The notes under the pieces are model-generated. The model was given only the letters and a program-made list of their open reading frames with translations, did no database searches and was not told the origin of the DNA. This document shows positions 12,941 through 23,048 of a DNA stretch of 64,000 bases, piece after piece. The DNA comes from Alpinimonas psychrophila (GTDB lineage Bacteria; Actinomycetota; Actinomycetes; Actinomycetales; Microbacteriaceae). Numbering within the stretch: the first letter of the stretch is position 1; the number at the start of each line of letters is the position of its first letter. Location of the stretch: the NCBI RefSeq assembly GCF_014137865.1, contig NZ_JACGWU010000001.1, positions 620,001 through 684,000 on the forward strand, read 5' to 3'. The translations under genes and the position numbers were made by a program.

Positions 12941-13852
12941 TTACTCCTTGTTAATTCCTAATAAGTCTACGACCTGTTGCGCCGCTGTGCTGACGTCGGC
13001 ATTCACGACACGGCAATCGAACTCGCTTTGGGCCGCTAACTCGACGACGGCCGTTGCGAGTCGCTGCGTCTTCTGCTCTTCTGTTTCCGTGCCTCGGGCG
13101 TTCAACCGGCGAACAAGTTCGTCCCAACTGGGTGGAAGAAGAAATATGAGGCGAGCCTCAGGAAGGGAGATTCTCACCTGTCGAGCTCCTTGGATGTCAA
13201 TCTCGAGAAGAACACTATTACCGGCAGCGAGAGCAGCTTCGACCGGGGCTCGCGGAGTTCCATACATCGCTTGACCGTGAACAATCGCGTGCTCCAAGAG
13301 TTCACCCGCCGCGACCATGCGAAGAAACTCCTCCTCGGAGACAAAGAAATAGCTGACCCCGTCGATTTCTCCGGGTCGAGGTTCCCTCGTCGTTGCCGAC
13401 ACTGACAGATGAATCTGGGGATTGTGTGCCCGGATGGCGTTAGCCACGGTGCCCTTGCCCACGGCCGTGGGTCCTGCCAACACCGCTACACGCGGCTTCT
13501 CAGCGATATTGCGACGCGCGGAAAAGTTCTGCAACCAATCCTTCGCGGCAGCGCGTTGAACGACACCGAGTCCCCCTAATTTCTTGCGGGGTGAAATCTC
13601 GAGGGTTCGGAGAATATCGTCCGTCTTGGACGTACCCAAACTGGGCAAAGCCATAATAAACTCACGAAAACGGAGCCCGGCCTCAACGGTTGTTTTATCG
13701 ATGGTGCCCATCGTAAAGACATCGAGAGGAGTGCGTTTGCCCGATGCCAGGCCCGCTTTTACACGTGCGCGTGCCTGGCGGGCCAGGACACCTGCGCGAG
13801 ACGCGGCAACACGATCTACGTCTGGCGGAGTCAGGGACTCAGGAGAGCGCAT
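12941..13852 (-). CDS. gmk: Fusion of mIHF-type nucleoid protein and guanylate kinase
   Basis: One 303-residue reading frame joins two proteins. Residues about 5-115 match actinobacterial integration host factor (mIHF): [19 protein letters not shown], the helix-turn-helix [14 protein letters not shown] (69-82) and [14 protein letters not shown] (88-101). Residues about 120-303 are guanylate kinase: Walker [10 protein letters not shown] (128-136), the GMP-binding [28 protein letters not shown] and the lid region RLNARGTE. Gmk phosphorylates GMP to GDP; mIHF binds and compacts DNA. The start chosen is ATG 13852, with GAGG six bases upstream; a TTG two codons earlier is less likely. It overlaps pyrF by 14 bases. 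Confidence 0.92.
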
Positions 13853-14690
13853 CAGCAACCTCGTTAGCTCGGCGGGTAATTGACTCTACGACTCCTCCTC
13901 GCCCAACGGCTAGTACGCTGCGAGTTTCAGCCACAATGAGGTTGCGAGTCATGGAGCCGAACACAGCGCGCGCGTCCTCGATCCGAGCCCCTTGGAAGCC
14001 AAATCCTGGAGCGAGAACCGGAACCGAGGGGTAGTCATCGGGGTTGATTCCAAATTCCTCAAGCTCGAGTGTGGCGCCGAGGACGACACCGATCGATCCT
14101 GCAGGCTCGCGCTTCAGCGACCATTGTTCAGCATCGCTGAGGATGGATTGGGCCACGGTTTCACCCTTGTGGGGACCGTCAGCAATGCGCGACTGTTGAA
14201 GCGCTGCGGCCTCGGGATTTGACGTTGCCGCCAACATGAACAGCCCCTTATTGCCCTTGAGCGCCAAATTCACCGTCTGCGTGAGAGAACCGGTGCCGAG
14301 ATAAGGACTCACCGTCAGGGCATCGGCCTCGAGGGCGCTTCCTGGGGTCAGCCACGTGCTGGCGTAGGCCTCCATCGTCGAACCAATGTCGCCGCGTTTG
14401 GCATCGGCAATGACGATGAGCCCAGAGTTGCGGGCGCGCTCAAACAGAAGCTCGAGAACTTCGTACCCGCGGGACCCATGACGTTCGTAAAAGGCAACTT
14501 GGGGTTTGATAATGCCGACGCGGTCAACGCACGCATCCACCACGCGAAGGGAGAATTCCCGAAGCCCGGCGGAGTCATCATTGAAACCCCATTCCTTCAG
14601 CAGAAAAGGGTGAGGGTCTATGCCCACACACAGGTGACCGTATTCGCTGAAGGCGGCACCTAACCGCTCGCCAAAGCCGGGATCGATCAT
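13839..14690 (-). CDS. pyrF: Orotidine 5'-phosphate decarboxylase (long, actinobacterial type)
   Basis: PyrF converts OMP to UMP, the last step of de novo pyrimidine synthesis. The 283-residue protein belongs to the longer OMPDC subgroup of Actinobacteria: [11 protein letters not shown] near residues 22-32, the catalytic Lys/Asp array [18 protein letters not shown] (about 93-110), [12 protein letters not shown] and [13 protein letters not shown]. The ATG overlaps the carB stop (ATGA) and its end overlaps the mIHF-gmk start by 14 bases, so it is the last member of the pyr cluster and is linked to gmk. Confidence 0.96.
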
Positions 14691-17600
14691 GCGTGACTCG
14701 AGACGTTCTGGGCGGTGGCGGAAGCCAGATTAGCTGCCCGCGCAAGGGCATACTCCTGAAGGCTGGTGACGGTGAATCCCTCTTGAATAATGTCGATGGA
14801 TGCCACGGCGGCACTCACCTGAGCCATGGTCGTGAATAACGGCTTGTCACCACCGACGGCTGCCGCCCGAATCTCGTAGCCGTCGGCTCTGGCGGCGCTC
14901 CCGCTCGGGGTATTGATGACGATGTCGACCTCGTTGCGGTTGATGAGCTCCACGATTGTGACACCCCCGCCCTTTTCACTGACTTTCTCGACAATCGTCG
15001 AGGATATGCCGTTGCGCTGCAAGATCTCGGCCGTACCCTCTGTTGCCAAGATCTTGAATCCCAGTTGCTCGAGGCGCAAGACGGGAAGCACGATGGCTCG
15101 CTTGTCGCGGTCAGCAACCGAGACGAAGACGGCGCCGGAGGAAGGCAGTGCCCCGTAGGCGCCGGCAAGGGCTTTTGCGAACGCACGCGGGAAGTCCTTG
15201 TCGATTCCCATGACCTCACCGGTCGATCGCATTTCGGGGCCCAGGAGTGAATCCACAATGTGCCCTGTGGGGGTTCGGAATCGTTTGAACGGCAGCACTG
15301 CCTCTTTCACGGAGATCGGCGCATCCATCGGCACAATGGAACCGTCTTGCACTGGCAACATTCCCTCGGTGATGAGATCGGCGATGGAATCCCCGACCAT
15401 GAGACGACTCGCCGCCTTAGCGAGGGGAATCCCCAAGGCCTTTGAGACGAAGGGCACAGTGCGACTAGCGCGAGGGTTTGCCTCGAGCACGTAGAGAATC
15501 CCGGCGCCGATGGCAAACTGTACGTTGAGCAAGCCTTGAACGCCAATTCCCTGGGCGATGGCCAGAGTGGCGATTCGAACTCTGTCAACATCGCGTTTTC
15601 CTAAGGTCACGGGAGGCAACGTGCAGGCCGAGTCACCCGAGTGAATCCCTGCTTCCTCAATGTGTTCCATGACCCCGCCGATATACAGCTGGGTGCCGTC
15701 ATAGAGGGCATCAACGTCAATCTCGATCGCATCATCTAAGAACCGGTCGACCAGAAGGGGACGTTTGACATCAACGACGACCTGACCCTCAATGCGCGTG
15801 AAGTAGTCGCGCACGCCAGCGGTGTCAAAGATGATTTCCATTCCTCGACCGCCCAGAACGTAACTGGGGCGAACGAGAACGGGATACCCGATCTCTTCGG
15901 CGGCGATGACGGCGCCTTCGACGTCGATGGCCGTGTCGTTGCGGGGTGCCAACAAGCCGGCTTCATCCAGAATTCTCGAGAATTCCCCGCGCTCCTCCGC
16001 CAAGTCAATGGCCTCAGGCGTAGTTCCCAGAATCGGGATCCCGGCGGCCTTTAGTCCGGCGGCAAGGCCCAGTGCAGTCTGGCCCCCCAGTTGCACGACC
16101 ACGCCCACGAGTTCACCCGAGAAACTCTCTGCGTGCAGAACCTCGAGGACATCTTCAAGGGCCAGCGGCTCAAAGTAGAGGCGATCGCTAGTGTCGTAGT
16201 CGGTGGAGACAGTCTCGGGGTTGCAGTTGATCATGATGGTCTCATAACCGGCATCCGCGAGAGCAAAAGAGGCGTGGACGCACGAGTAATCAAACTCGAC
16301 GCCCTGACCAATGCGGTTGGGGCCGCTTCCGATGATGACAACCTTGCGGCGATCACTGGGAGTGACCTCGTTCTCGAGGTCGTAACTGGAGTAGTGGTAC
16401 GGGGTCTCGGCTGGGAACTCCCCCGCACACGTGTCGACTGTTTTGAAGACCGGGCGGATGCCGAGCCCGTAGCGTGCGGCCCGAACAATCTCTTCGGTCA
16501 AACCTCGAAGCTCGGCGATCTGAACATCAGAGAAGCCATGATCCTTGGCATGGCGGAGGATGCCCGCATCGAGATCCTTGTGGGCAGCGATGTCGTCGGC
16601 TACCTCGTTGATGAGCAAAATTTGATCGAGAAACCACGGGTCAATCTTGGTCGCCTCGAATGCCTGCTGGATGGTGGCACCCTTGCGCAAAGCTTGCTGC
16701 AGCGTAACGATGCGGCCATCTGTGGGCACCTTCGAGATCTCGAGGAGTTCTTCCATTGTGCGGGGCTCGACACCCCAGTGGAAGGAGCTTCCACGCTTCT
16801 CTAATGAGCGGAGGGCCTTCTGCAGCGCCGTCGAGTAGTTGCGACCGATGGCCATCGCCTCTCCCACAGACTTCATGGTCGTGGTGAGGGTGGCGTCGGC
16901 GGCGGGGAACTTCTCGAACGCGAAGCGCGGGACCTTGACGACGACGTAATCCAGCGTGGGTTCAAAGCTCGCCGGCGTCACCTTGGTGATGTCGTTCTTG
17001 ATTTCATCGAGGCGGTAGCCGATAGCGAGCTTGGCCGCGATCTTGGCAATGGGGAAACCGGTCGCTTTCGACGCGAGTGCCGAGGACCTCGAGACGCGGG
17101 GGTTCATCTCAATGACGATGATGCGGCCATCTTTGGGGTCAATGGCGAACTGGATGTTGCATCCGCCGGTATCGACCCCGACGAGACGAATTATTTTGAT
17201 GCTGATATCGCGCAGCTTCTGGTATTCACGGTCGGTCAACGTCAGTGCCGGGGCAACGGTGATCGAGTCGCCGGTGTGCACGCCGACGGGGTCTACGTTC
17301 TCGATGGAGCAGACGACGACGGTGTTATCGGCCGTGTCGCGCATGAGCTCAAGTTCATATTCTTTCCAGCCGAGGATGCTCTCCTCGAGCAGGACCTCGG
17401 TGGTGGGGCTGGAATGGAGACCGTCGGTCACGATGCGAATAAGGTCTGTTTCGTTGTACGCAAATCCTGAGCCAAGGCCGCCCATGGTGAAGGACGGGCG
17501 AACGACGAGGGGGTATCCAAGCTCCCCGGCCGCCACGAGAGCTTCGTCAAGGGTGTGGGTAATAAACGAACGCGCCGATTCGGCACCAGCTTCGGTGACG

Positions 17601-18004
17601 ATGTCCTTGAAAAGCCATCGGTCTTCACCCTTACGGATCGCATCGACTTTGGCTCCGATGAGCTCGACGCCGTGACGCTCGAGCGCTCCGTTTTCGTGCA
17701 AGGCCATTGCGGCATTAAGCGCAGTTTGGCCGCCCAGCGTCGGCAGAATGGCATCGGGACGCTCTTTGATGATGATGGATTCAATGACTTCAGGCGTGAT
17801 GGGCTCCACGTAGGTCGCATCAGCAAAGTCCGGGTCGGTCATGATCGTGGCGGGGTTTGAGTTCACCAAAATAACGCGAATGCCCTCCTCACGAAGAACA
17901 CGACAAGCCTGTGTTCCAGAGTAATCAAACTCGCAGGCCTGGCCAATGACGATGGGGCCGGAGCCGATAACAAGGACAGATTTAATGTCGGTACGACGTG
18001 GCAT
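14687..18004 (-). CDS. carB: Carbamoyl phosphate synthase large subunit
   Basis: CarB makes carbamoyl phosphate from bicarbonate, ammonia (channelled from CarA) and two ATP, feeding pyrimidine and arginine synthesis. The 1105-residue protein has the expected internal duplication: two ATP-grasp halves (roughly 1-400 and 555-935), each opening with a VIGSGPIxIGQ/ [11 protein letters not shown] dinucleotide-like motif, an oligomerisation domain between them, and a C-terminal allosteric domain (about 940-1105, MGH-like), where UMP and IMP act in the family. [16 protein letters not shown] and [14 protein letters not shown] mark the two metal sites. One base overlaps with carA. Confidence 0.97.
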
Positions 18005-19161
18005 TAGAGGGCTGCTCCAGTGGTCGAGGCGGATGCGAGCACCCTGTCGCGAAAACGGTCAAAAAGATAGTTCGAATCGTGGGGGCCGGCGGCCGCCTCG
18101 GGATGGTACTGAACGGAGAACGCGTTGAGGTCGAGGCAGTTGAGCCCCTCCACCACGTTGTCGTTGAGGCTGTAGTGGCTGACTTCGACCCGGCCGAAAC
18201 CGGCGGGCGACTCCAGGATTCCCTCGATGGGGGCATCGACGGCGAAACCATGATTTTGGCTCGTGATTTCGACGCGACCGGTTGCTTTGTCGAGAACGGG
18301 CTGGTTGATTCCGCGGTGACCAAAGGGCAACTTATAGGTACCGAACCCGAGGGCACGCCCCAACAGCTGGTTTCCGAAGCAGATACCGAAGAACGGGATT
18401 CCAGACTTGAGGCAGGTGCGCAGGAGCTCAACATGCGTCTCACTGGCACTGGGGTCGCCGGGCCCGTTGGAGAAAAACAGCGCGCTGGGCTTCATTGCAA
18501 TGATGGCCTCAGCAGTGACACTCTGCGGCAGAACGTGGGCTTCAAAGCCACGCTCGGCAAGGTAGTTCACCGTGGATTTTTTGACCCCGAGGTCAAGGAT
18601 GGCCACGGAACCGACACGATCACCTTGTGCAGGCACGACGTATGCTTCTTGGGTAGAAACCTGAGCCGAGAGGTTTCTGCCGGCCATTTCGTCCCCGGCG
18701 AGTACGAGGTCAAGCTGTTCCTTGGCAGGCAACTGCGACGCCGTGCCCGAGAAAATTCCGGAGCGCATCGCTCCCTTGGAACGAATGTGACGCGTGATGG
18801 CACGGGTATCAATTCCGCGGATGCCCACGATACCCTCGTGCTCGAGATCGTTCTCGAGGCTTCGCTCGGCACGAAAATTTGAGACGATACGCGAAGCGTC
18901 ACGCACGACAAACCCAGAAACCCAGATGCGGCGAGACTCCATGTCTTCATCGTTCATCCCCGTGTTACCAATGTGGGGAGCCGTCATGAGGACAATCTGA
19001 CCCGCGTAGGAGGGATCGGTCAGGGTCTCCTGGTACCCCGTCATTCCGGTAGCGAAGACAATTTCACCAAAAGTGGTTCCCTCGCTTCCGTAGGAGAGCC
19101 CTTCGTAGCGTGAGCCATCTTCAAGCACGAGAACGGCATCTTTGATGTTCGTGAACGTCAC
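18004..19161 (-). CDS. carA: Carbamoyl phosphate synthase small (glutaminase) subunit
   Basis: CarA hydrolyses glutamine and passes ammonia to CarB. The 385-residue protein has the N-terminal CPSase small-chain domain (about 5-150: [37 protein letters not shown]) and a class I glutamine amidotransferase domain with the catalytic cysteine in [16 protein letters not shown] and the His-Glu pair in [18 protein letters not shown] rather than LGHQ after the cysteine is usual in Actinobacteria. It starts with GTG in a GTGA overlap with the upstream membrane protein gene. Confidence 0.97.
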
Positions 19162-19751
19162 GAGGCGACCTCTTTCACTGTTGTGGTGTGGGCGGCGCCA
19201 AAAGCTTCGAGTGTTGCTTCGAGGCTTGCGCGCAAGCGGGTATTGGGAATTCGAAAGTAGGACGTCACCAGGCTTCGTTCCCCGGACGTGGAGTTTGTGG
19301 CAACCCAGTCCACGGCTGTTAGGCCATCGTTCTCGACGACGCGATCGATTGTCACGCGAGCGCTTCGGACACCCAGGAAGCTGGCGGCACCGATGGTGGT
19401 GGGGTACTCCCCCGCGGGGGCAATCTCGATTAAGTCATGGAGGACTCGAACCGTGGCTTTGGCCCGAAAACCGAGTCCAGGAAGGTTGAGGCGTGTCAGA
19501 GGCTCTTCTGTCGGTGTTGTTGCGACATAGAGAACCCTAAATTCAAGGGTGTCTCCGTTCCCTGGAAGAGGACTGCCAGGCATGGGGCTGCCGGTAATGG
19601 CAGTGCCCGCAAGTGACTGTCCCGTTCTCGTTGTCGTTGTCGTCATCGTCGCTGAAGTAGCCGAGCGACGTTTCCACGAACGGTACATGCCCCACCAGGC
19701 AAGGGCGACGAGCGCTCCCACAATAATGGCGCCAATGCTGTATCTATCCAC
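19158..19751 (-). CDS. Conserved membrane-anchored protein of unknown function between pyrC and carA
   Basis: I choose the GTG at 19751, preceded by AGAGGAAG at good spacing, giving about 197 residues; a longer frame from 19793 would overlap pyrC by 50 bases. The protein has one N-terminal membrane helix ([19 protein letters not shown], about residues 4-22), a Ser/Thr/Pro-rich linker, and a soluble beta-rich region from about residue 60. A protein of similar size and layout sits between pyrC and carA in mycobacteria (Rv1382). Its place inside the pyr operon in distant Actinobacteria suggests a conserved role, but none is known. Its start overlaps the pyrC stop by eight bases. Confidence 0.8.
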
Positions 19752-21081
19752 GTCGAACTTCCTCTGCTTGGGCCGCGATGATGTCTGTGGCAATGAGTTT
19801 TGCTCCGGCTACCGTGGCATAACCCTGGTGAATGGTCCACATCACTCTTCCGGGAAGGTCAATCCCCAGGTACGGCGAGTTGTGCGATTGTCCGGCGAGT
19901 CGATCTGTCGTGAATACTTGACGGTCATGGGGGTCAACGAGCGTAATTTCGGCGGGGGCTCCGACGGCAAGCATCTGGCCGTGAGAAGCAAGTCCTCCGA
20001 TTCGTGCTGGGGTTATAGAGAGGACCCGGGCAACGTCATCCCAGGTAAACAAGCCGGTCTCAACCATGGATTCTTGAACGACGGAAAGCGCAGACTCCAG
20101 CCCAATCATTCCAAAGGCGGCGGCACCCCACTCGCACTCCTTCGACTCGCTCGGGTGCGGCGCATGGTCGGTGGCCACAATGTCGATGGTGCCGTCGGCA
20201 AGGGCCTCTCGCAGCGCTAAAACATCCTCACGGCGACGCAGAGGCGGATTCACTTTGAAGCGTGCGTCGTACGTCTCCGCACGGTCTTCGCTGAGGAGAA
20301 GGTGGTGCGGCGTGACCTCCGCTGTGACGTTGATTCCGCGAGCCTTCGCCCATCGAATAACCTCCACGGACCCGGCAGTGGACAGATGACACACGTGCAG
20401 GCGACTTTTCACGTGTTCCGCAAGCAGAACATCCCGGGCAATGATGGCTTCCTCGGCAACGGCCGGCCATCCTGCTAGTCCGAGGCGAGCGGAAACTTCA
20501 CCCTCGCTCATCTGGGCGTCTTCGGTGAGCCGTGGCTCTTGGGCGTGCTGCGCAATAACACCGTTGAATGATTTGACGTATTCCAAGGCGCGACGCATAA
20601 GGAGGGGATCCGAGACGCATTTACCGTCATCACTAAACACCCGCACTTGAGCTCGGGACGAAGCCATTGCGCCCAGTTCTGCAAGGTGCATACCCTCAAG
20701 GCCCTGGGTTACTGCCCCGATGGGCCGAACAGTCGCGTAGCCTGCCGCCTCTCCGAGAGCAAGGACTTGCTCGACGACACCGGCAGTATCAGCGACGGGG
20801 TTGGTGTTCGCCATAGCGAAAACGGAGGTGAAACCACCGATGGCCGCCGCTTGGGTGCCGCTCAGGACAGTCTCGCTCTGTTCGTAGCCAGGTTCGCGAA
20901 GGTGAGTGTGCAGATCAACTAGTCCGGGAAGAGCAATGAGTCCGTGGGCGTCAATGATCTCAGCACCAGCGGAGTCGAGCCCAGAACCTATGGCGGCGAT
21001 CACGTTGCCCTGAGTGAGGATATCTGTTGCCGATCCCGAGCCAATCTGGGCTCCCCGGATCAGAAATCGTGGAGCGCTCAT
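19744..21081 (-). CDS. pyrC: Dihydroorotase
   Basis: PyrC closes carbamoyl aspartate to dihydroorotate. The frame is open further upstream, but that part overlaps pyrB; the ATG at 21081 overlaps the pyrB stop (ATGA) and gives 445 residues starting [13 protein letters not shown], the normal length for class I dihydroorotase. Zinc ligands His58 and His60 are in [12 protein letters not shown], and the catalytic aspartate is in IVATDHAPH (about 312-320). [17 protein letters not shown] and [11 protein letters not shown] hold further metal histidines. It is the third gene of pyrR-pyrB-pyrC. Confidence 0.96.
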
Positions 21082-22034
21082 GCGTGGACCTCTCGATTGC
21101 CCGTTAGTACCGTGTAGAGCGTGGCCATCCGAACGGAGACTCCGTTGGCCACTTGCTCGAGAATCGTTGACTGCGGGGAGTCCGCGGCGGCCGAGGATAT
21201 TTCGAGTCCCCGGTTCATTGGTCCGGGATGCATGACGAGTGTCGTGGCGGGGAGCCCGATCCAACGCGCATTCGACAGGCCCCAAACATTGGAGTATTCC
21301 CGGGGATTCGGAAAAAAGGCTTGATTCATGCGTTCCTGTTGAATGCGCAGCATCATGATGACGTCCGGCGCGGATTCGCCGAGGGCGTGATCCAGATCGT
21401 AATCGACGGTAACCGGCCACGTGTGAACGGCGACGGGAAGAAGCGTAGCCGGGGCGACAAGTCTGACCTCGGCTCCCAACGTTTTGAGGAGCCAAACGTT
21501 GGAGCGCGCCACGCGAGAGTGAACAATGTCCCCCACAATGGTGACACTGACACCATCCAAGCCTTTGCCGCGTGACCCGGCGCCATGGAGCCGTCGACGC
21601 ATCGTAAAGGCATCAAGAAGAGCCTGAGTGGGATGTTCGTGCGTCCCGTCTCCAGCATTGATTATTCCTGCGTCAATCCAACCGCTCGCCGCTAGGACCG
21701 CGGGTGCGCCGGAAGCACCGTGACGAATCACGACAGCATCGGCACCCATCGCCGACAAGGTTTGGGCGGTGTCCTTAAGACTCTCACCTTTGGAAACGCT
21801 GGAACCTTTTGCGCTGAAATTGATGACGTCGGCCGAGAGCCTTTTAGCGGCAGCTTCAAAGGAAATACGGGTCCGGGTGGAATCCTCAAAAAAGAGATTC
21901 ACCACAGTCTTGCCCCGCAGGGTGGGAAGTTTCTTGTTCTCGCGATCGGCTACGGCGGCCATGTCCTCAGAAATATCGAGAAGGTCGATGGCAGCGTCAC
22001 GGGAAAGTTCCGAGGTGCTCAGAAGGTGCCTCAT
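21078..22034 (-). CDS. pyrB: Aspartate carbamoyltransferase catalytic subunit
   Basis: PyrB joins carbamoyl phosphate and aspartate. The 318-residue protein has the carbamoyl-phosphate motif DSTRTR (51-56) with [10 protein letters not shown] carrying the Ser-Lys of the 80s loop, and [11 protein letters not shown] (about 136-146). [12 protein letters not shown] and MHPGPMNRG mark the aspartate domain. There is no pyrI regulatory gene nearby, so it is a class that relies on transcriptional or translational control through PyrR. The ATG overlaps the pyrR stop by four bases. Confidence 0.97.
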
Positions 22035-22573
22035 GCGCTGACCGCCTGATCGATCGTGACGACGTCTTCACCGTCGAGTTCCGCGAGGCGAACATTGATT
22101 CGTTCGTCGTGGGCCGAGGGAAGATTCTTGCCTACAAAATCCGCTCGAATGGGGAGCTCGCGGTGTCCGCGGTCGACCAAGACGGCCAGGCGCACGATTT
22201 GGGGTCGTCCCAAATCGGTCATGGCATCAAGCGCGGCACGAACAGTGCGGCCCGAGTACAACACGTCGTCTACCAGGATGACGGTTGATCCCTCAATGCT
22301 CACCGGGACGTCGGTGGGAGAAGACATGCGGGTGGGATGCTGCCACAGATCATCGCGGTACATCGTGACGTCTAGCGCTCCGACCGGGATGGCGGCTCCC
22401 GGAACAATGGTCTGAAAAATTGCGGCCAGTCGACGAGCGAGCGTTACCCCGCGCGTGGGAATTCCCAATAAAACGAGGTTGTCCGCGCCGCGATTAGATT
22501 CGAGAATCTCGTGGGCAATGCGCGTGAGCACTCTGTGAATGTCAGGTGTCTGCATAATGACGCGTGCAGTCAT
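22031..22573 (-). CDS. pyrR: Pyrimidine operon regulator / uracil phosphoribosyltransferase
   Basis: PyrR binds UMP/UTP and pyr mRNA to reduce pyr gene expression, and has some uracil phosphoribosyltransferase activity. The 180-residue protein shows the PRPP loop [20 protein letters not shown] (about 94-113), [14 protein letters not shown] (38-51) and [19 protein letters not shown] precedes the ATG, and a PyrR-binding RNA hairpin lies directly upstream, so the protein probably represses translation of its own operon as described for mycobacteria. It heads pyrR-pyrB-pyrC-unknown-carA-carB-pyrF, all joined by overlaps. Confidence 0.96.
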
Positions 22574-22575
22574 TC

Positions 22576-22603
22576 TGACCTCCTTCCCCGCCTCTCTGGA
22601 CGG
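22576..22603 (-). promoter_or_regulatory. PyrR-binding RNA hairpin and ribosome binding site of pyrR
   Basis: Read on the minus strand the leader contains CCGTCCAGAGAGGCGG (22603-22588): a CCG/CGG stem closing a loop that holds UCCAGAGAGG. GTCCAGAGAGGC is the core of the PyrR-binding loop known from Bacillus and mycobacteria. AAGGAGG follows two bases after the stem, then the pyrR ATG at 22573. With so little room for a terminator, repression by blocking ribosome access is the likely mechanism (inference). The 61-base gap also has TTGACT and TAAAAT, but only 14 bases apart. Confidence 0.85.
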
Positions 22604-22634
22604 ATTTTAAAGGATGTCGATTGAGTCAACTCTA

Positions 22635-23048
22635 TCAGGATGCGGTGGAGGCGATAGTGGCGAGCAATCCGTTCACGAAGCCAGCGGATTCCTCGGTGCT
22701 CAAGATCTTTGCCGCTTCGACCGCTTCATCTACGGCAACGGCGGCGGGAACATCGGGGTTAAAAAGAATTTCCCAGACGGCGATGCGGATGAGCGCACGG
22801 TCCACGGCAGGCATACGCTCCAGGGTCCAACCACGGGCATACGTGGCTATGGTTTCGTCAATTTTTTCGTGATGATCGATAACCCCGTCAACGATCTCCC
22901 GCGCGTAAAGCCACGAGGCAGTCCGCGCCGGCTCGCTGGCCGCTCTGGTCGCTTCTGCGTCCAGAGCCTCGACGAGAGAGATCTGACGGACATCCGCTGA
23001 AAAAAGAATGTCAAGGGCCCGCTTGCGAGCCTTCGTGCGAGCACTCAT
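22635..23048 (-). CDS. nusB: Transcription antitermination factor NusB
   Basis: NusB joins the rRNA antitermination complex with NusE (S10) and binds boxA. The 137-residue all-helical protein opens SARTKARKRALDILFSADVR, an arginine-rich RNA-binding helix, and ends with the typical AVWEILFNPDVPAAVAVDEA, where helices pack against S10, then ESAGFVNGLLATI. It lies 3 bases after efp, the usual efp-nusB order, and 61 bases before pyrR. Confidence 0.96.
   Translation of the reverse strand: MSARTKARKRALDILFSADVRQISLVEALDAEATRAASEPARTASWLYAREIVDGVIDHHEKIDETIATYARGWTLERMPAVDRALIRIAVWEILFNPDVPAAVAVDEAVEAAKILSTEESAGFVNGLLATIASTAS

Follow-up and report, generated by a model that had tools for sequence, protein, structure and literature searches.

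The leader of the pyr operon in the window (the whole 64,000-nt stretch of Alpinimonas psychrophila DNA analyzed here) most probably, at about 87% as judged from its sequence, forms a PyrR loop that blocks translation of pyrR by taking up the Shine-Dalgarno (SD) sequence in its lower stem. What is inferred comprises PyrR binding, the response to UMP, the consequences for translation and for the genes further downstream, and the start of the transcript.

A PyrR loop at the pyrR ribosome binding site

The PyrR loop lies within the gap between nusB and pyrR and shares bases with the first ribosome binding site of the pyr operon (Table 1). The initial annotation had described a 16-base hairpin that carries the PyrR core and ends two bases before AAGGAGG, and this hairpin was confirmed at 22603-22588 on the minus strand. 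It is followed by GG and then by AAGGAGG (22585-22579), and the distance from the upper hairpin to the pyrR ATG at 22573 is 14 nt. The description of the hairpin as pressed against the SD was right about its placement and incomplete about the structure, since it overlooked the lower stem (22614-22610 with 22585-22581), which pairs with the SD. The minimum-energy fold showed UCCUU paired with AAGGA beneath the upper hairpin. As modelled, the loop contains the ribosome site: its lower stem is predicted to include the SD and not merely to stand beside it.

The fold of the 70-nt stretch was mildly unusual (z -1.50; 15 of 200 shuffles were equally stable), so the case for the loop rests on conservation and covariation. 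GTCCNGNGAGGC occurred once in the window against 0.20 copies expected, and at least one copy was present in 18 of 100 shuffles; the bare core therefore says little by itself.

Table 1 Features of the pyr leader and operon in the window.
Feature	Position	Strand	Basis or remark
Extended -10 TGATAGAGT (TAGAGT 22634-22629)	22629-22637	-	Conserved position among leaders
nusB-pyrR gap	22574-22634	-	61-nt intergenic distance, not a measured leader
Whole PyrR loop	22614-22581	-	
Lower stem, 5' strand (anti-SD) UCCUU	22610-22614	-	Fold, RF00515 alignment, sequence
Internal bulge UAAAAU	22604-22609	-	Same position as the RF00515 bulge
Upper hairpin CCGUC-CAGAGA-GGCGG (CCGTCCAGAGAGGCGG)	22588-22603	-	Sequence, RF00515 alignment, covariation
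Upper stem halves CCGUC and GGCGG	22603-22599 and 22592-22588	-	
Hexaloop CAGAGA	22598-22593	-	
PyrR core GUCCAGAGAGGC (GTCCAGAGAGGC as DNA), inside the upper hairpin	22601-22590	-	
Lower stem, 3' strand AAGGA (first five SD bases)	22581-22585	-	Fold, RF00515 alignment
SD AAGGAGG of pyrR, 5 nt before the ATG	22579-22585	-	Predicted duplex with the 16S 3' end, -16.7 kcal/mol
pyrR, PyrR regulator / uracil phosphoribosyltransferase	22031-22573	-	NCBIfam NF003547, 256.9 bits (cut-off 230)
pyrB, aspartate carbamoyltransferase	21078-22034	-	Start overlaps the pyrR stop
pyrC, dihydroorotase	19744-21081	-	Start taken at ATG 21081
bPH_11-domain protein, fourth operon gene	19158-19793	-	Start uncertain
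carA	18004-19161	-	
carB	14687-18004	-	
pyrF, seventh operon gene	13839-14690	-	

Covariance models and conservation in Microbacteriaceae

The conserved core, upper stem, hexaloop and bulge of the PyrR loop are all present. The alignment with the Rfam PyrR model RF00515 takes in both stems, the bulge and the loop and scores 33.9 bits, short of the gathering cut-off of 54 bits; the model has 115 positions and extends beyond the loop, and most of this extra length is missing from the window leader. At E values up to 0.001, RF00515 matched none of 20 genomes (Alpinimonas psychrophila and relatives) and 3 of 14 control genomes.

We constructed two further covariance models: R1, with 39 positions, from 17 actinobacterial leaders including the window leader, and R2 from 11 leaders of more distant actinobacteria, chosen outside Microbacteriaceae (two of them, the MAG loci L060 and L067, bear no family name). 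Both were built on the equal-length sets A2 and A5, the bulge being misaligned in the mixed-length set A1. A fixed sequence pattern missed many leaders that the covariance model detected and was excluded from the counts. R1 gave 62.0 bits at the window site, which is itself one of its 17 sequences, and R2 gave 55.1 bits with an E value of 4.5e-12. In the 2.24-Mb genome this site was the sole match of either model at E values up to 10; R1 scored 150 of 959 first-look candidates and R2 scored 150 of 1537. Three further places in the genome fit the bare core pattern, and none was matched by R1 or R2.

R1 matched 146 of 150 Microbacteriaceae genomes, and PyrR was found in 148 of them. All but one of the 146 matches ended between -2 and 9 nt from the start of the PyrR alignment, the most frequent distance being 5 nt (88 matches). 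Two genomes (G015 and G099) contained neither PyrR nor an R1 match; two others (G087 and G119) had pyrR and no R1 match, and both carry two tandem loops. Lack of loop conservation in close relatives had been put forward initially as a ground for abandoning the hairpin, and these counts show that the conservation holds. A chance hairpin was ruled out by the family-wide R1 matches together with the single R2 match in the genome. The current Rfam model misses these leaders in the 20 genomes given above, though R1 detects a site in nearly all family genomes. In the phylum, 212 of 396 genomes matched R1 at E values up to 0.01 under stricter filters.

Two family genomes were unusual at pyrR. In one (G040; L178, C10:362000-364800), pyrR lies about 1.3 kb upstream and has no loop, and it is a 27-codon reading frame upstream of pyrB that is preceded by a good PyrR loop; this is perhaps an operon in rearrangement. 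In the other (G009; L179), an intact loop is followed by a pyrR match split into two overlapping pieces that lie in different frames, which is a frameshift in the gene or in the assembly.

Three pyrR leaders also contain a tandem pair of PyrR hairpins enclosed by a single CCTT and a single AAGG: L176/L184 (G087), L177/L181 (G119) and L203 on the minus strand (G1059). They span three genera and two families and differ in their spacers, and genomes of the same genera (G004 and G149 of g5, G049 of g50) gave an ordinary R1 match. The tandem leaders came from a pattern search of 398 family genomes and 394 class genomes, for which every one of the 9 family matches was inspected together with 20 of the 33 class matches, 13 class matches having no locus; the remaining 26 inspected matches showed neither loop context nor PyrR downstream.

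Covariation of the stems

The initial annotation had proposed a covariation search over related pyrR leaders, and this search revealed compensatory changes, mostly in the upper stem. In A3 (84 matches, 73 distinct rows) and A4 (60 matches, 58 distinct), both fitted to the structure beforehand, 97.4% and 97.0% of cells paired, respectively. Double changes were found in 20 cells of A3 against 2.7 in shuffles and in 48 cells of A4 against 15.0; none of 500 shuffles reached either number. The upper stem accounted for 16 of the 20 and 40 of the 48 double changes, and shifting the pairing partners reduced both the paired cells and the double changes in A3 and A4. The MAFFT alignment A2, made without structure, contained one double-change cell, a number reached by 32 of 500 shuffles; across its 17 rows the bulge stretch TTTAA showed no variation.

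The lower stem behaved differently from the upper one in these alignments. In both A3 and A4 the four CCUU/AAGG pairs are standard wherever a cell holds letters and change very little; the outermost pair, U-A, fails to form in 13 of 70 cells of A3 and 17 of 54 cells of A4. Covariation is therefore of little help for the stem proposed to mask the SD, and the near-invariance of CCUU/AAGG neither proves nor disproves it. Such constancy is as expected if this stretch must serve both PyrR and 16S rRNA.

Position of the loop relative to pyrR across lineages

We classified loci as SD-type when the AAGG of the loop had an ATG, GTG or TTG in frame with pyrR no more than 22 nt away, and scored as a T-run five or more T between the loop and pyrR. 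The named loci were the best 80 of 555, and 77 of these 80 had an R1 match upstream of pyrR; three loci from other lineages (L075, L076 and L081) had none. Among the 70 named actinobacterial loci outside Eggerthellaceae, 69 were SD-type (L017 fails the strict start rule) and none had a T-run before pyrR. The seven other named loci, five from Firmicutes in the broad sense and two from Eggerthellaceae, included no SD-type locus and six with a T-run. A further 60 phylum loci were picked by hand among the listed R1-matching genomes, so that all match R1 by choice. Those from the same class, Actinomycetes, were SD-type in 18 of 18 cases with no T-run. SD-type leaders made up 13 of the 42 loci from other classes (2 of the 42 without a PyrR match), and 12 of the 42 carried a T-run, 11 with the loop far from the start and one SD-type when CTG starts are allowed. 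Allowing CTG starts raised the SD-type counts to 71 of 77 named and 16 of 42 other-class loci and left the same-class count at 18 of 18. The lower stem CCUU/AAGG is present in both layouts; its role at the SD therefore looks like the reuse of an older part.

These layouts bear on Bacillus-type attenuation, in which PyrR would act as an anti-antiterminator and a terminator would form before pyrR. The loop is of the same kind as those of Bacillus-type attenuators, and a loop far upstream followed by a T-run is the layout of the six named loci from other lineages. In the window, however, only the 14 nt noted above separate the upper hairpin from the ATG, a scan for intrinsic terminators detected no terminator-like site on the minus strand between the loop and the pyrR ATG, and the T-run is absent from all 70 named actinobacterial and all 18 same-class loci. 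The early judgement that the leader leaves no room for the antiterminator and terminator of Bacillus is upheld by this spacing and by the scan. Attenuation was accordingly rejected on the lack of a terminator in the leader and of a T-run in relatives, and we consider its probability close to negligible.

A conserved -10 element at the end of nusB

The TGA within TGATAGAGT is the nusB stop codon (22635-22637, minus strand). Of 70 leaders, those of 69 named actinobacterial loci and that of the window, 65 have a TANNNT that begins 26 to 15 nt upstream of CCTTT, whereas each of seven equally wide control stretches has one in 1 to 4 of the 70; this count omits L037 and L166, which have no anchor, the named loci of other lineages, and L001, a copy of the window. 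In the wider phylum sample, TANNNT was found in 38 of 59 loci against 2 to 6 of 59 in controls. The full TGNTANNNT occurs in 37 of 70 loci, and the bases preceding TANNNT favour TGN: among 64 aligned leaders, 81% have G at -2 and 58% have T at -3. No -35 element stood out upstream of the -10 in the aligned leaders, and a consensus promoter scan, which requires a -35, returned nothing on the minus strand between 22500 and 24200. The usual spacing from a -10 to the transcript start is about 7 bases. Transcription would start near 22622, which gives a leader of about 49 nt. The leader is thus short, as had been remarked from the sequence; the figure of 61 bases given for it is the intergenic gap.

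Two other readings concern the 5' end of the message. The bulge sequence TAAAAT (22609-22604) itself fits TANNNT, and if it served as the -10, the transcript would start inside the hairpin and the loop would be absent from the message. Only 5 of 70 relatives have TANNNT at this position, as against 65 of 70 leaders with the upstream element, and a start within the hairpin would give the conserved 5' stem no reason; we regard this reading as very hard to sustain. A start inside the hairpin had been named beforehand as an outcome that would count against the loop, and the conserved upstream -10 makes it unlikely. Alternatively, the hairpin could mainly protect the 5' end or tune mRNA decay with PyrR uninvolved. 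It does lie within a few nucleotides of the inferred 5' end, but the specific PyrR core, hexaloop and bulge are kept and 145 of the 146 family matches precede pyrR, which leaves such a role highly improbable.

The pyr operon and its PyrR protein

The seven-gene pyr operon that had been proposed from the open reading frames is borne out: pyrR, pyrB, pyrC, a gene for a bPH_11-domain protein, carA, carB and pyrF are consecutive, with overlapping frames. The PyrR protein matches solved PyrR chains and retains LTRIAHE and a 16-residue stretch, which we take to hold the RNA-binding residues. The gene for the bPH_11-domain protein lies between pyrC and carA (19158-19793, minus strand). Just after pyrF, a single frame at 12944-13858 (minus strand) combines an actinobacterial IHF-like N-terminal stretch (NF041260, 49.6 bits, below the cut-off of 60) with guanylate kinase (213.8 bits) and may encode an mIHF-Gmk fusion. 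This frame shares bases with the 3' end of pyrF and is possibly cotranscribed with it.

Predicted energies and the proposed control of translation

The 70-nt 5' stretch has a predicted energy of -21.8 kcal/mol, and opening the SD would cost 10.2 kcal/mol. The SD is predicted to pair with the 16S end at -16.7 kcal/mol, and the co-fold of the leader with that end reaches -27.6 kcal/mol; this corresponds to a net -5.8 kcal/mol, and in the co-fold the upper hairpin persists but the lower stem is open. According to these energies, the ribosome can win when PyrR is absent, and the balance would tip the other way if bound PyrR contributed several kcal/mol more. In 69 relatives, the mean net energy was -6.6 kcal/mol (-14.2 to -2.8). 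AAGG was predicted to be paired, with a mean unpaired probability below 0.2, in 61 of 69 leaders; after shuffling of the first 20 nt, the count was 29 of 345.

We propose that when UMP is plentiful, PyrR-UMP would bind the loop through the core GUCCAGAGAGGC and the bulge and lock both stems. The locked stems would keep the 30S subunit from the SD, and pyrR and the coupled downstream genes would be little translated. When UMP is scarce, the anti-SD of the ribosome would compete the lower stem open. Control by blocking translation, which the initial annotation had favoured as the natural reading, is the one best supported by the conservation, the SD overlap and the terminator scan. A variant keeps the translation block as the first step and assigns much of the repression of the distal genes to Rho-dependent polarity on untranslated message; such polarity would follow from the general behaviour of untranslated messages, and the reading frames overlap all the way from pyrR through pyrF. 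We consider this division of the effect rather unlikely.

With respect to its origin, we tentatively suggest, at somewhat less than even odds, that in class Actinomycetes an old PyrR loop merged with the SD. Its structural lower stem CCUU/AAGG, which in Firmicutes belongs to the attenuator, would thereby have become an on/off switch over the pyrR ribosome site, with an extended -10 at the end of nusB feeding it and a leader that is almost only switch. A few lineages would then have doubled the PyrR hairpin, which could allow cooperative binding of PyrR oligomers.

Comparison with known PyrR-controlled leaders

The excerpts of PMC7430163 give the PyrR loop core as ARUCCAGAGAGGYU, with a hexaloop, upper stem and bulge. 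The loop described here has this core in common with RF00515 and Bacillus subtilis, in the form CGUCCAGAGAGGCG with the A-U end pair replaced by C-G (PMC7430163), and it also shares the hexaloop, upper stem, bulge and lower stem CCUU/AAGG. B. subtilis has three attenuation regions, according to the same excerpts (PMC7430163), whereas A. psychrophila has one loop by R1 and R2. Unlike in B. subtilis, no antiterminator or terminator was found in A. psychrophila, its AAGG doubles as the SD, and its loop scores below the RF00515 cut-off.

Fields and Switzer reportedly described a PyrR loop before the first pyr gene of Mycobacterium smegmatis, with no terminator, and proposed that the first ribosome site is occluded; their abstract is said to propose the same control for many other bacteria. 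A leader of the M. smegmatis type is defined by a loop that overlaps the first ribosome binding site without a terminator or antiterminator, by UMP-dependent binding, and by repression of translational, not transcriptional, fusions by uracil. The likeness to that system lies in the loop before the first gene, the lack of a terminator and the proposed occlusion of the ribosome site. A. psychrophila differs in belonging to another family; its SD paired within the lower stem and its -10 at the nusB stop are reported here on the basis of sequence.

PyrR-dependent translational repression in M. smegmatis has already been published, as the title of Fields & Switzer 2007 (PMC1951914) states, and the pyrR leader reported here is therefore a known kind of switch. 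In the excerpts of PMC3766115, PMC2965389, PMC4342826, PMC12369341, PMC13328217 and PMC7430163, we found no description of a Microbacteriaceae PyrR leader. As far as these portions of the literature show, what appears to be added here is that the SD overlaps the lower stem, that this overlap is constant in the family, that a -10 lies at the nusB stop, that RF00515 fails on these leaders and that tandem loops occur. With the exact bases for a simple test now available, these results, drawn from one family and from class samples, support the view that a PyrR translation block is the rule in these actinobacteria and not a mycobacterial exception.
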